Shown here: in pieces, positions 17,003-27,529 of the stretch
Position numbering within the stretch: position 1 is the stretch's first letter
Layout: the number at the start of each line of letters is the position of its first letter
Assembly: GCF_008369195.1 (NCBI RefSeq)
Contig: NZ_VOBC01000002.1
Location: forward strand, 124,001 to 188,000
Length of the DNA: 64,000 nucleotides
DNA from: Sporosarcina sp. ANT_H38
GTDB taxonomy: Bacteria; Bacillota; Bacilli; Bacillales_A; Planococcaceae
Direction of reading: 5' to 3'
Position numbers and translations under genes: made by a program
Notes under the pieces: model-generated
What the model was told of the DNA's origin: nothing
Seen by the model: the letters and a program-made list of their open reading frames with translations, nothing else
Database searches by the model: none

Positions 17003-17632
17003 TTAAGTAGAACTTTTTCCGCCATCTTCTCCTACTATATCTGCTTGCTTTTTTTGAGGTAATTCGATTGCAGATAGTGCTCTCCAAATCGTAAATCCCG
17101 AGTAGATAAGCAGTAGGAATCCAGGTATTAACAGCAAAAGTGCACCATTCTTCGACTGAGTGAAGTTAATGAAGTATCCTACGTAAGGCACTGTATAACC
17201 GGTGTACTTGGCTACCACATTGGCAGACTGAACTGGATTCATGTCCCCTGCATTATTGTTGTCGCCTTTTGTCCGATAAAGTACGGAGTCTCCACTTTTG
17301 ACCACCTCTGTAATCCTGTGTGTAATTAAAATGCCTTCTTCTTCTTGGAATGTGATGACGTCGCCTTTTTTAAAATTAGTTTTATCTACTGCCTGTTTTA
17401 CGGCAATGAGTGAGCCTGTTTGAATTCCCGGCTCCATGGACCCCGACAGAACTGTTTTAATTTGGTAACCGAAAAGCTGCGGCTCCCCGCCTGAGACTTT
17501 TGTGACGACCACTATGGAAGCAACACTGATTAGCAGAATCATCAATATGCCGGAGATGATGTTATTTATCCACTTCATTATTTTCTGCTTATTCTCCACC
17601 TTCCGTTCTTTCTTCGCTTTCTGTTTCCTCAT
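17003..17632 (-). CDS. sipW: Signal peptidase I, SipW (ER-type)
   Basis: A 209-residue protein with a membrane helix at about 22-46, the catalytic serine Ser65 in SGSMEPG, His105 (LITHRI) in place of the usual bacterial lysine, and a second helix at about 165-187. The Ser-His type is the archaeal/ER-like signal peptidase that processes TasA and TapA in Bacillus. GAGGGGG lies 6 bases before the ATG at 17632, so the start is well supported even though it lies inside the TapA-like gene (44-base overlap). That overlap suggests translational coupling. Its substrates should be the TasA-like, TapA-like and perhaps the LPATS protein. Confidence 0.92.
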   Translation of the reverse strand: MRKQKAKKERKVENKQKIMKWINNIISGILMILLISVASIVVVTKVSGGEPQLFGYQIKTVLSGSMEPGIQTGSLIAVKQAVDKTNFKKGDVITFQEEEGILITHRITEVVKSGDSVLYRTKGDNNNAGDMNPVQSANVVAKYTGYTVPYVGYFINFTQSKNGALLLLIPGFLLLIYSGFTIWRALSAIELPQKKQADIVGEDGGKSST

Positions 17633-18476
17633 TTATATCCCCCTCAGCTTTCTCTGTGTTTTTTTCTTGTTTTACGGTATCATTCGTTTCATTGTCTATT
17701 TTCTCAACTGCTTTATCTTCAGCGGACTCCTTGCCGTCCGGCTGTTTTTGTTCGTCATCTCCAGGAATTTCCTGATCCTTCTCTGTGTTGGCATCCAGAT
17801 CTGCCTTATCCTCTAAATTCCCTGACTCAATCGACTCCTTATTTTCCTGATCATTCGTTTTTTCGTCTTCTATTGCTTTATCCTCTTCCTTTTCTACCTC
17901 AGGTACATCATCTTTGTCCCCGCAGTCAACCTTGATTTCCTCGCTTGTTACCTCATTCTTTTCGTTTTCTTCCTTAGATTTATCATCTTTGTTCCCACAG
18001 TCGACCTTGATTTCCTCGGTCGTTTCAGGATCCTTTTTGTTTTCTACTTTGGACTCATTATCTTTGTCAACGCAGTCGATCTCGATTTCCTCGCCCGTTA
18101 CAGAATCCTTCTCGTTTTCTTCCTTAGGTTTATCATCTTTGTCCTTGCTGTCGTTCTTGATTCCCTCGTCCGTTACAGAATCCTTTTCGTTTTCTCCCTT
18201 GGACTCTTTGTCATTGTCCTCGCCGTCGATCTTGATTTCCTCGCTCGTTACAGCATCCATTTCATTTTCCTCTTCTTCGCCGCAATAATTAACCGGAACT
18301 TCCCATATGGCAGTGATTATCTGGGAAACTTCCGACTGGCTGCTGAGATATGCGGACGTGTTAGACGACATATAACTGATGCCAAAGACAGATAAATAAC
18401 ATACTAGTGTTATCTTTAAACTTAAGTTAAGATTGCGGCTATTTTTCTTATTTCTACGCCTACGCTTGCTTTTCAA
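17589..18476 (-). CDS. tapA: TapA-like fibre assembly protein with acidic repeats
   Basis: About 295 residues. A basic start (KSKRRRRNKK) precedes one hydrophobic helix and TSAYLSSQSEVSQIITAIWEVP, the kind of N-terminus seen in TapA/YqxM proteins. The rest is strongly acidic and of low complexity. It includes five 25-residue repeats of type T[ST]EEIK[IV]D..DKD..SKEENEKD at about residues 75-205, followed by Glu/Asp/Lys-rich sequence. The start was set at TTG 18476 behind GGCGGGG. Position between tasA-like and sipW genes, not sequence of the acidic part, is the main reason for the name. The acidic tail has no obvious fold and may bind calcium or wall polymers. Confidence 0.68.
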   Translation of the reverse strand: MKSKRRRRNKKNSRNLNLSLKITLVCYLSVFGISYMSSNTSAYLSSQSEVSQIITAIWEVPVNYCGEEEENEMDAVTSEEIKIDGEDNDKESKGENEKDSVTDEGIKNDSKDKDDKPKEENEKDSVTGEEIEIDCVDKDNESKVENKKDPETTEEIKVDCGNKDDKSKEENEKNEVTSEEIKVDCGDKDDVPEVEKEEDKAIEDEKTNDQENKESIESGNLEDKADLDANTEKDQEIPGDDEQKQPDGKESAEDKAVEKIDNETNDTVKQEKNTEKAEGDINEETESEERTEGGE

Positions 18477-18604
18477 GCCAACCCCGCCTTTCAAAGTATT
18501 ATCGCTAGAATTTTCTTAAATATATTCCTCAAAACATAAAATAGAGTTATATGTTGAGAAATATATATAAGGAAGTGCGCCGGCGGTCTGATGAAATAGA
18601 ATAA

Positions 18605-18627
18605 GGGAGGAGAAGGGCTCTCCTCCC
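18605..18627 (-). terminator. Intra-operon attenuator after the tasA-like gene
   Basis: GGGAGGAGA pairs with TCTCCTCCC around a 5-base loop, between the tasA-like and tapA-like genes. It lacks a strong T run, so partial read-through would give more fibre subunit than accessory proteins. Confidence 0.5.
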
Positions 18628-18637
18628 GGTATATATG

Positions 18638-19234
18638 TTATTTCAATACACCTTTTGTCTGCTGTGCATCAAACTTCCATTTCAGCTCCAAATTAGCGCC
18701 TTGGTAAGCGTTTTGATCTTCATTATTGTCATTGAATCTAAACATTACGTGCAAATTATCCTTTGTACCAGCTTTGAGGCCGCTGTCTTCCCCACCTTGC
18801 CATCCAAACCATTTCGGTGATTCATTTTTAACAGCATCCGCTGACATATTTGCCAATTCGCTTAAAGTCATGGAATCAATCACATTACTAGGTCCAAGTA
18901 AACTGCTTTTATCTTCGTTTATCAGAAATTCCACTACAATGTGATCTCCAAAACCTCCTACTGATTCAGTAAATTCGGTAGTCAATAATACTTTGGAAAT
19001 ATCAAGGCTACCGTTGTTTTCCAATTTGAAATTACGATACATCCAGTCACCCGGCTTGATATTACTTACATCAATTATGGTTTCAGGATTTACTGCCAAA
19101 TCCAGCGTACCTGCAGCAAATGTGTTCACACTTGTTTCTACATCATTGAAATAAGCATAAGTTCCTCCGCCGATCATACTTACAGCCAATGCTCCAGTTG
19201 CGATACCCATTGCTAGCTTCTTTTTAATATTCAT
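18638..19234 (-). CDS. TasA/camelysin (CalY)-like fibre protein
   Basis: A 198-residue protein with a SipW-type signal (AVSMIGGGTYAYFND, cut after Ala27) and a beta-rich domain starting with AGTLDLAV and NIKPGDWMYRNFKLENNG, the signature of the TasA/CalY (peptidase M73/camelysin) family. Members form extracellular amyloid-like fibres in the biofilm matrix. It is the first gene of the operon tasA-like, tapA-like, sipW, LPATS protein, sortase. About 870 bases of gene-poor DNA upstream, and a divergent response regulator, suggest specific control. Confidence 0.9.
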   Translation of the reverse strand: MNIKKKLAMGIATGALAVSMIGGGTYAYFNDVETSVNTFAAGTLDLAVNPETIIDVSNIKPGDWMYRNFKLENNGSLDISKVLLTTEFTESVGGFGDHIVVEFLINEDKSSLLGPSNVIDSMTLSELANMSADAVKNESPKWFGWQGGEDSGLKAGTKDNLHVMFRFNDNNEDQNAYQGANLELKWKFDAQQTKGVLK

Positions 19235-24718: not shown

Positions 24719-27094
24719 TCAATGATCTCGGTTCACTAGATAATTCAACAAATGCTTCAAAAAAGTCGTATTACGTGGTATTTCTTGCAACGTTTCCATC
24801 GCAAAACAATAATGTTCCCACATCGCGTTTCTGGCACCGACAACACCTAAGATTGATACAAATGTCGTACTGTTGTTTTCAGCATCTTTTCCACTGGGTT
24901 TTCCGAGTACGTTCTGATCTCCTTCAACATCAAGCAGGTCGTCCTTAATCTGAAATGCAATGCCGGCATGACGGGCGAATTTTTTCAAAGCTTCCATTTC
25001 CAACTCCGTTGCCTTTGCGAGAATTGCAGGCATTAGGAGAGAAGCTTCAAATGCGATTCCAGTCTTATAAAAGCACATCGTATTCAATTGTTCCAGCGTC
25101 AATTGTTTGTCTCTGGACTCCAAGTCCATCGCCTGTCCCCTACACATATCCCCTACGATTTTGGACGAATATCCAATCAAGCTTAGCACCGTTTTCGGGT
25201 CGTACTGCTCAAGAGTTGTTTGTTCTTCAACCGCTTTTTGGGTCAGGAAAAGTCCAGTTAATTCAGCTGTGGCAATGTCATAGACCTGATGGAGGGTTTG
25301 ACGCCCTCTACGCGTTGGCGCATTATCCTGGGATGGCATATCGTCAAAAATGAGGGATGCCGTATGCATATATTCCAAGGATCTCAGAAGTGGTACGATG
25401 GACGACTGATTCAATCCATATTCGTTCACACCCATGACCCAAGTTATGATTGGCCTTAGTCGCTTTCCATCACTTTGCAGACTGTAATTTGCCGCTTCGA
25501 TTATCGGCTCTCTCATCAAAGAGGCATTCGCTATTTCGGAAATAGGTAGTACATCGTTGATCTGATTGCGTACAGTTTTGATCGTATCTAAAAAGTCTTC
25601 CTGCTCTTTCCGTTCACTTTTCAGATTCGTAATCATATGATCTCGCAGCAGTTTATCAAAGAAATCCACATCATCTGCTTTTCGAACCATACTTTGAATG
25701 ACTTTATTGAATTGAGGATTTCCGGAAGCAAATAAATGCATAACTTCGTTGTACTTTTTAGTTCCCATACGTTTTTTAAATCGTTTCAGCCCGTTTATTG
25801 CACGATCCAGTATCACCTCGCGCGTCTTGCTATCTGAGTTATAGACATTATGGATCAAATTAGAGATGACCGTCCAGTACAATTCAAAGGGATTTATGAG
25901 ATCCGCGCGCTTATCATGATACTTCATATAATAGGTATAGGGTGTTACTCTTCCTTCATTTAAGTCATCAAACATATCTGCAAAATCATCCGCTAGCTGA
26001 TTGTAAATGCCATATAAGAATGTTCGGTTGTCAAAGCCCTCATCCTCAGGAGCACTTATTACTGAACGGGTAATCAATCGTGAAGAAGAGGATTTTAAAA
26101 TGACAGGTATATAAAGCTCTTCATTGGTGTAATTCGCATTGGATAGATTCTTTACGCGATCCACTTCCTGTGCATTAAAAAACACATAGGACTGCTCGAA
26201 AAAACTTTTTCTTGTCTCTGGCTGCTGAAGGCCCTTAATATACTCAAAGGCATCACGGAGCTCCGAATGGATAAATCGAATGAGTTCCGCGTTTTTCCCA
26301 GTCCACTCTTCCCATTCAGGAACAGATCCTGCGATAAGTGTGGACCGTATTAAATCGGAATATCGTTTTTTCTCTTGAATTGATAACACGTTGGCATCCA
26401 GAAGGTCGTCAATGAATGGATACGTCAGACCATAGGAATACCCAAGCCTAATCGCTTCATCAAGTTTCCACATACGTTCTTCAGGCGTAATCTCAGCGTC
26501 CATTTCTTCAATCACATGCAGGATTACCCCTGCTATGATTTTAATAAGTTTTCGCTTGGCTTCCTCAGCATCCATCCCCTCTGGAATATGGGAGGTTACA
26601 GTCTTTAATTTGTCCAACACCCAGATCATGGTGGATTCAATGCCTTCCTTCTGGGCAAGCCGGTACATTCCAGCCATGCTAAACGTCTCCAATTTGCTTC
26701 CAGGATTTGATTGAGTTAGGTGATTTTTTAAATTCTCAACTGTACGTCGAACCCTGGTCTGTGTGTCAGGTGAGTCCAAGGCTTTGCCCAGATCTCGCAT
26801 GTAAATATAGGAAATACTCCGATCCAAGTAATTATCTAGTTTACCTGTGTAATTCAACCATTGGATATAACTGTGATATCCCTTGGAATCAGCTCCTCCC
26901 TTTCCACGCGAAAAAATAGATAAGAACGGGAGAGGATGAATATGGTGCTGCTTCCATGCCTTTATATCTTTTATCAAAACAGGGACAACCATTTTTTGCA
27001 CGAGCTGTTCAGAAAGTGATTTAAAATAATGAGCAGCCTTCTGCTCAGCCAACCGATAGCGTGCATCGGCATTTTTTTTAAACTTCTCATTCAT
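24719..27094 (-). CDS. Fusion of two class I isoprenoid synthase domains
   Basis: A 791-residue protein (numbering here from an upstream TTG, three residues longer). The C-terminal part (about 500-794) is a complete trans-prenyl diphosphate synthase. It has GKRLRP at 546, first Asp-rich motif DDMPSQD at 587-593, RRGRQTLH, and second motif DDLLD at 721-725 followed by LGKPSGKD. The N-terminal half (about 60-480) also looks like an all-helical class I synthase. DDLLD is at 232-236, and 140 residues on comes DDFADMFDDLNEGRVTP at 372-388. So it may make a prenyl diphosphate and then use or cyclise it. No squalene, carotenoid or ComX genes are adjacent. The start at 27094 has AGAGG 11 bases upstream. 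It is transcribed alone. Confidence 0.75.
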   Translation of the reverse strand: MNEKFKKNADARYRLAEQKAAHYFKSLSEQLVQKMVVPVLIKDIKAWKQHHIHPLPFLSIFSRGKGGADSKGYHSYIQWLNYTGKLDNYLDRSISYIYMRDLGKALDSPDTQTRVRRTVENLKNHLTQSNPGSKLETFSMAGMYRLAQKEGIESTMIWVLDKLKTVTSHIPEGMDAEEAKRKLIKIIAGVILHVIEEMDAEITPEERMWKLDEAIRLGYSYGLTYPFIDDLLDANVLSIQEKKRYSDLIRSTLIAGSVPEWEEWTGKNAELIRFIHSELRDAFEYIKGLQQPETRKSFFEQSYVFFNAQEVDRVKNLSNANYTNEELYIPVILKSSSSRLITRSVISAPEDEGFDNRTFLYGIYNQLADDFADMFDDLNEGRVTPYTYYMKYHDKRADLINPFELYWTVISNLIHNVYNSDSKTREVILDRAINGLKRFKKRMGTKKYNEVMHLFASGNPQFNKVIQSMVRKADDVDFFDKLLRDHMITNLKSERKEQEDFLDTIKTVRNQINDVLPISEIANASLMREPIIEAANYSLQSDGKRLRPIITWVMGVNEYGLNQSSIVPLLRSLEYMHTASLIFDDMPSQDNAPTRRGRQTLHQVYDIATAELTGLFLTQKAVEEQTTLEQYDPKTVLSLIGYSSKIVGDMCRGQAMDLESRDKQLTLEQLNTMCFYKTGIAFEASLLMPAILAKATELEMEALKKFARHAGIAFQIKDDLLDVEGDQNVLGKPSGKDAENNSTTFVSILGVVGARNAMWEHYCFAMETLQEIPRNTTFLKHLLNYLVNRDH

Positions 27095-27529
27095 ATGAAT
27101 CAATACCTCTACTTAAAGTTTTCATATATATATGTATGCAATATTGGTCAAATCAATGTTACTAACCTAAACACTATCCCAAACTTTTAACAAAAACTAA
27201 ATTTATTTTATTCAAGAAAACGATACACAGACTGAAAAATAGTGTTTGTGCATCAAACGAAGACAAGCAACTCAGACGAGTTAGTCATACAGCTGATTTT
27301 GATTGCTTTATTATCAAATTGTAGCGTATACGCCAAGTTTTTTCATGCGCAGGCACCTGAAATTAAGATAGTTCTACATAAGGAGTAATACGTATATAGA
27401 TACAATGAAGCACATTGGTTACAACCCCAAAACTAAATCAACATAAAGTATTTCTTTATTGAAATGAACAATGGCGCACTCACGATAACGAGATTTACCA
27501 ATCGTTAATGAATCGAGGAGGTTAGACAG
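27095..27529. other. Intergenic region between divergent genes
   Basis: It carries the promoter regions of the synthase (minus) and dehydrogenase (plus) genes and a palindromic element at about 27241-27366. No promoter could be assigned safely. Confidence 0.35.
27241..27366. repeat. ~150-bp palindromic element, degenerate copy
   Basis: Left GTTTGTGCATCAAACGAAGA, right TTCATGCGCAGGCACCTGAAA. Its middle, CAGCTGATTTTGATTGC, resembles the element family at 29523, so the copy may be mixed. Confidence 0.5.

Follow-up and report, generated by a model that had tools for sequence, protein, structure and literature searches.

A two-domain isoprenoid synthase of Sporosarcina in which a predicted class I-like domain precedes a trans-prenyl diphosphate synthase

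The stretch of DNA analysed here (the window; 64,000 nucleotides from Sporosarcina sp. ANT_H38) encodes, on its minus strand at 24719..27094, a two-domain isoprenoid synthase of 791 residues plus stop. The C-terminal domain (residues 496–791; 24722..25609, minus) is a trans-prenyl diphosphate synthase of the PF00348 family, and the N-terminal domain (residues 1–490; 25625..27094, minus) belongs to no Pfam family and is predicted to be all-helical, with a fold like that of class I terpene and isoprenoid synthases. Both halves carry invariant aspartate motifs and the two are inherited together; the class I-like fold of the N-terminal half is established as a predicted model. We consider it probable that the protein is a bacterial bifunctional isoprenoid synthase, in which the diphosphate made by the C-terminal domain would be converted to a terpene by the N-terminal domain.

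An earlier reading of the DNA letters alone (the sequence-only reading) had proposed a complete trans-prenyl diphosphate synthase at the C-terminus, and this was borne out: the C-terminal half scored 175.9 bits against PF00348, for a cut-off of 27, and has a first aspartate-rich motif (FARM), DDMPSQD, at residues 584–590 (25325..25345, minus) and a second (SARM), DDLLD, at residues 718–722 (24929..24943, minus). Conservation was assessed in 87 homologues, namely the window protein, 79 of the 80 loci fetched (the best 80 of 402 genome stretches encoding relatives) and loci L024–L030; close relatives were included, and L118 was left out because its frame ends at 659 residues. Lys544, Arg547, Asp584, Asp585, Arg595 and Arg596 were present in all 87 sequences, as were the KT pair, Lys677 and Thr678 (25061..25066, minus), and the three SARM aspartates, Asp718, Asp719 and Asp722, whereas Arg545 and Asp590 were found in 86 each; the residues of the FARM, SARM, GKRxRP, RR and KT motifs are thus conserved. 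The fifth residue before the FARM is Ala579 in 86 of the homologues and glycine in the other, and this alanine points to a product of C20 or longer. The domain shares 34% identity, across 265 residues, with the IspA-like protein of the same genome.

The N-terminal half has an aspartate-rich pair of its own, which the sequence-only reading had also picked out and which held up on comparison. The two motifs, D229-D230-L-L-D233 (26396..26410, minus) and DDFADMFDD at residues 369–377 (25964..25990, minus), lie 140 residues apart; the three aspartates of the one and Asp369, Asp370, Asp373 and Asp377 of the other are invariant in 87/87, with Asp376 present in 67. The earlier numbers for these motifs (232 and 372) are 3 above ours because a 794-residue version, starting at an alternative TTG at 27103, was counted, rather than the 791-residue version that starts at the ATG at 27094. 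A helix, K334-S-S-S-S-R339-L-I-T-R343 (26066..26095, minus), contains Arg339, again invariant in all 87, together with Lys334 and Arg343, which are invariant in a set of 60 sequences (A2). Residues 86–93, LDNYLDRS, resemble the DYLDNLCDRS of DUF2600, but Asp87 and Asp91 occur in 76 and 72 of the 87 homologues, respectively, and so are not invariant.

Of the checks suggested with the sequence-only reading, the survey of orthologues gave the conservation of metal-site residues just described, and structure prediction gave a model with an alpha-helical class I isoprenoid/terpenoid fold, as judged by Foldseek and VIA comparisons. Among the Foldseek matches listed, 6loo and 5yo8 had the highest TMq values (0.39 and 0.37), and human squalene synthase (3weh) ranked fourth, with an E-value of 9.9e-3 and a probability of 1.00. 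The 50 VIA matches listed were terpene synthases throughout, squalene synthases not being among them, a list that excludes no family falling outside it. At the level of Pfam, the window domain matched no family at E ≤ 0.1 and gave no match to PF00494 (squalene/phytoene synthase), although the structural hits do include squalene synthases; a weak PF00494 match of the whole protein (E 0.024) falls at residues 644–726, within the prenyl synthase half. The sole match to a Pfam terpene-synthase family was to PF19086, in one of the 60 related N-terminal domains (E 0.015). Matches to PDC10_C at residues 162–198 (E 0.03, whole protein), to a gliding-machinery family at residues 408–477 (E 0.0095–0.015, against a cut-off of 100 bits) and to AvrM-A (PF18241) in the N-terminal domains of eight of the 60 relatives (best E 7.1e-4) were taken as chance, and DUF2600 (YtpB, class IB) was dropped as a candidate family after profile comparison with hhalign gave a probability of 0.4.

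Unfused relatives of the N-terminal half occur in Clostridia (P0121–P0240; L121, L122 and L124). With L031, a remote match, as the query and candidate length limited such that fusions of about 790 residues were unable to appear, 3243 proteins were retrieved at E ≤ 1e-3. The 120 top-ranking ones are 402–466 residues long and have no Pfam domain, and some bear the NCBI name 'class 1 isoprenoid biosynthesis enzyme'. In the 28 of these 120 that were aligned, YPYxDNxxD and LQxxDDLxD are invariant and Asp165, Asn166, Asp169, Asp292, Asp293 and Asp296 are kept. The profile of the fused N-terminal domain aligned with the unfused profile over positions 222–391 (hhalign probability 94.1, E 1.2e-7; 93.8 and 1.8e-7 when 60 sequences were used), with Lys334 opposite the lysine in EKGG, a motif of the unfused proteins, and, through that, aligned with Lys677 of the prenyl synthase domain. 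A hidden Markov model (HMM) of the N-terminal domain recovered 118 of the 120 unfused proteins at 1e-3 and none of 120 shuffled, 120 reversed or 18 DUF2600 sequences, and the unfused HMM recovered 87/87 fused proteins and none of 87 shuffled or 87 reversed ones, E-values here being those for small test sets. At E ≤ 1 the controls gave one shuffled and 10 reversed matches with the N-terminal HMM, and two and 20, respectively, with the unfused HMM. Judged by these profiles, the N-terminal domain and the unfused clostridial family are clearly distant homologues across both metal motifs, on separate branches.

We infer that the N-terminal domain is catalytic and takes the product of the prenyl synthase as its substrate, with a chain length and type of product as follows. 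The C-terminal domain would condense isopentenyl diphosphate with allylic starters to give an all-trans diphosphate with at least 20 carbons, geranylgeranyl diphosphate (GGPP) being the likeliest. The N-terminal domain would bind a magnesium cluster through Asp229, Asp230 and Asp233 together with Asp369, Asp373 and Asp377, ionize this diphosphate and release a terpene hydrocarbon or alcohol, and the fusion would shield the intermediate from the housekeeping farnesyl diphosphate and heptaprenyl pathways. A wider proposal, for and against which we give even weight, is that Bacillota, in genera that mostly form spores, have a lineage of bifunctional terpene synthases of their own, independent of the fungal chimeras, in which an uncharacterized class I domain with an aspartate-only second motif, from a Firmicutes superfamily with thousands of unassigned members, is joined to a GGPP-type synthase, the single protein making di- or sesterterpenes from C5 units.

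The aspartate-rich character of both N-terminal motifs, as in squalene synthase, and the rank of 3weh in the Foldseek list would also suit a head-to-head condensing, two-substrate class I enzyme of the squalene/phytoene synthase kind, making a C40 or similar linear dimer out of the prenyl diphosphate that the protein itself produces. We regard this as unlikely, because the VIA matches listed are all terpene synthases, PF00494 is not matched in the window domain, and no conserved redox or desaturase partner lies beside the gene. Heptaprenyl and geranyl diphosphate synthases have non-catalytic partners, and the N-terminal domain might similarly be a class I domain, either non-catalytic or regulatory, that tunes chain length or release by the prenyl synthase in the manner of the small subunits of heterodimeric synthases, the product then being GGPP or longer. 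The database names of the relatives would fit such a role, as would the lack, across 80 loci, of a conserved downstream gene to use a special product; however, the invariance of seven N-terminal motif aspartates would be unexpected for a dead domain, and the distant unfused family keeps its motif residues too, so that we find this explanation improbable.

We think it very unlikely that the protein is a tandem synthase, in which the N-terminal domain would be another prenyl diphosphate synthase that elongates chains. PF00348 did match 30 of the 60 N-terminal domains at E ≤ 0.1 (best 3.2e-4), and the unfused profile aligned in register with the prenyl synthase domain over Lys...DDxxD (probability 23.5, E 8.7e-4). 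However, when ten N-terminal domains were scanned singly, the seven that matched PF00348 did so below the cut-off and in two registers (280–381 or 188–270); the AvrM-A matches mentioned above, to a family with no apparent relation, are of similar size; and a scan of 28 unfused proteins gave no PF00348 match at E ≤ 0.1. Direct comparison of the N-terminal half with the prenyl synthase domain was empty (BLASTP E 0.42, hhalign probability 0.4), which also leaves unsupported an internal duplication giving rise to the one from the other. In addition, the arginine pair that follows the FARM of prenyl synthases and binds diphosphates is absent after DDLLD 229–233. Our reading of the N-terminal half is a class I domain, possibly of prenyl synthase descent, with this arginine pair missing. 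Since the ComQ of Bacilli is likewise of the PF00348 type, a ComQ-like enzyme that attaches an isoprenyl group to a pheromone peptide was considered too, but the two-domain make-up speaks against it and we find it scarcely credible. As the sequence-only reading had remarked, no comX- or comP-like gene is adjacent: none is among the eight nearby open reading frames (ORFs) scanned, the rest of the genome not having been searched. Nor is any neighbour conserved across the 80 loci, in a survey whose lower limit of 70 residues short peptide genes would escape.

The layout had been called unusual in bacteria. The fusion is indeed bacterial, but it is no one-off: 402 genome stretches encode relatives (a contig scan with two patterns, so that one gene may count twice), 79 of the best 80 being full-length fusions, and 1369 database proteins, labelled polyprenyl synthetase or geranylgeranyl pyrophosphate synthase at source, match residues 1–480 at E ≤ 0.001. 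The closest named homologues are from Sporosarcina. Within the genus, 26 of 61 genomes gave a match, 24 of them with an open frame of at least 786 residues; decayed copies include one with six internal stops (G023:C1:542650-544143) and a 44-residue remnant (G003:C8:45482-45616), and outside the genus the frame of Paenibacillus rigui (L118) is cut at 659 residues. An even sample of the phylum gave matches in nine of 398 genomes, comprising the unfused L031 and eight fusions, these being from the source genome itself, from six members of a family (f3) that groups with Paenibacillus in a quick tree, and from one genome outside the class (G183). In this tree, the branch support of which is SH-aLRT only, four copies labelled Clostridium or Clostridia cluster with the G183 copy (L025, L049, L053, L086 and L091; support 92, below the star threshold). 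The cluster sits inside the Bacillaceae/Caryophanaceae part, and a branch with full support lies between it and the main Paenibacillus group, an arrangement that suggests horizontal transfer. Patchiness, decay and possible transfer together look like the pattern of accessory metabolism. The pairwise distances of the two domains are correlated (r = 0.80, 3741 pairs, related pairs not being independent), and the two domains of the fused protein are inherited together. One locus, L045, labelled Arthrobacter beigongshangensis, holds a Sporosarcina-type copy; the label is probably outdated, since Sporosarcina beigongshangi is named elsewhere (P0031).

In the window the fused gene stands alone amid symporter-like, FBP and Mor-like genes, with a zinc alcohol dehydrogenase gene divergent from it. 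By Pfam, the eight nearby ORFs encode proteins of the sodium/bile-acid-symporter, FBP, Mor-like and zinc alcohol dehydrogenase families, and of the FG-GAP, YflT/DUF2382, LuxR-type response regulator and camelysin families. The neighbour survey covered ORFs of at least 70 residues within at most 10 kb on each side, several of the 80 loci being far shorter. The commonest neighbours, ABC ATPases (by sequence), occur at 25 of the 80 loci and within 1.5 kb at only five, and no family is found within 1.5 kb at more than seven. A Neobacillus/Bacillus subgroup (L047, L052, L055, L058, L061 and L065) has, 83–178 bp downstream on the same strand, a gene for a protein of 264–272 residues with repeated TDQxFxxLxxAGVT units. 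Six terminator-like sites were found in the region scanned, against 2.0 expected, and one such hairpin, followed by TTATTTTAAA, lies within the first 25 codons of the fused gene (27030–27047, minus); promoter-like sites were not in excess (seven, against 7.9 expected). Elsewhere in the window (17589–19234, minus), the ORF after a camelysin-type gene (PF12389) is built of imperfect acidic repeats resembling KGENEKDSVTDEGIK.

We also considered whether the product of the fused gene might feed a squalene-hopene-type cyclase, of which the 4.63 Mb source genome has one gene (L130, G000:C1:897920-898870). The genome, fused gene included, has no match to DUF2600 (PF10776), the family whose enzyme would make tetraprenyl-beta-curcumene. 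However, a strong cyclase match (E < 1e-90) occurs in seven of the 61 genus genomes, four of them with an intact fused gene, and is missing from 20 of the 24 genomes that hold one; the idea was dropped, there being no clear association. DUF2600 occurs in eight of the 61 genomes, three of which have the fused gene, and PF00494 is uninformative for co-occurrence because it is present in 57.

According to PMC8307374, the fungal chimeric terpene synthases (PTTS) have a class I terpene-synthase domain first and a C-terminal trans-prenyl synthase, in about 700 residues, are confined to fungi, and carry the NSE/DTE triad as the defining motif of the first domain. The order of domains proposed by the sequence-only reading therefore stands and is shared with these chimeras, as are the single polypeptide and a DDxxD in the first domain; the protein nevertheless lies outside the fungal family. 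The Sporosarcina protein has a bacterial host, a long extra N-terminal region and no Pfam terpene-synthase match in its N-terminal domain, and in place of the triad it has DDFADMFDD, with Asp369, Asp373 and Asp377 invariant and hence without N/S/E ligands. With the triad missing and almost no detectable sequence kinship, the fungal chimeras are a functional model rather than the family of this protein. The missing triad alone does not rule out a terpene synthase, as one fold match, 8kih, bears a title describing a type I diterpene synthase that lacks it. No bacterial fusion of terpene synthase and prenyl synthase was recognized in the portions of the open-licence PMC literature consulted (including PMC12654598 and PMC12105684), and one may have been described elsewhere. 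If the bifunctional reading is true, bacteria have a counterpart, separate in origin, to a layout given as fungal-only in PMC8307374, and it extends across Bacilli and some Clostridia, hidden under ordinary prenyl synthase or polyprenyl synthetase labels.

The unfused clostridial family shares with the fused N-terminal domain YP-x-x-D[DN]xxD, LxDDxxDxxxD, a conserved lysine and homology over approximately residues 176–420, but has DNxxD as its first motif and GG after the lysine, where the fused protein has DDLLD and KSSSSR. Two of its members (L127 and L128) have no adjacent prenyl synthase. If the bifunctional reading holds, the N-terminal domain also offers a functional handle on this large family, because the fused gene would provide the likely substrate within one polypeptide, and expression of a single fused gene could show what the unfused proteins do. 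The class IB large terpene synthases of Bacillus (YtpB/DUF2600; 6loo and 5yo8) share the class I fold, but are unfused and have no sequence kinship to the N-terminal domain detectable by hhalign. In comparison with the type II (CrtE/IspA-like) prenyl diphosphate synthases, the synthase described here stands behind a fused domain of 490 residues.
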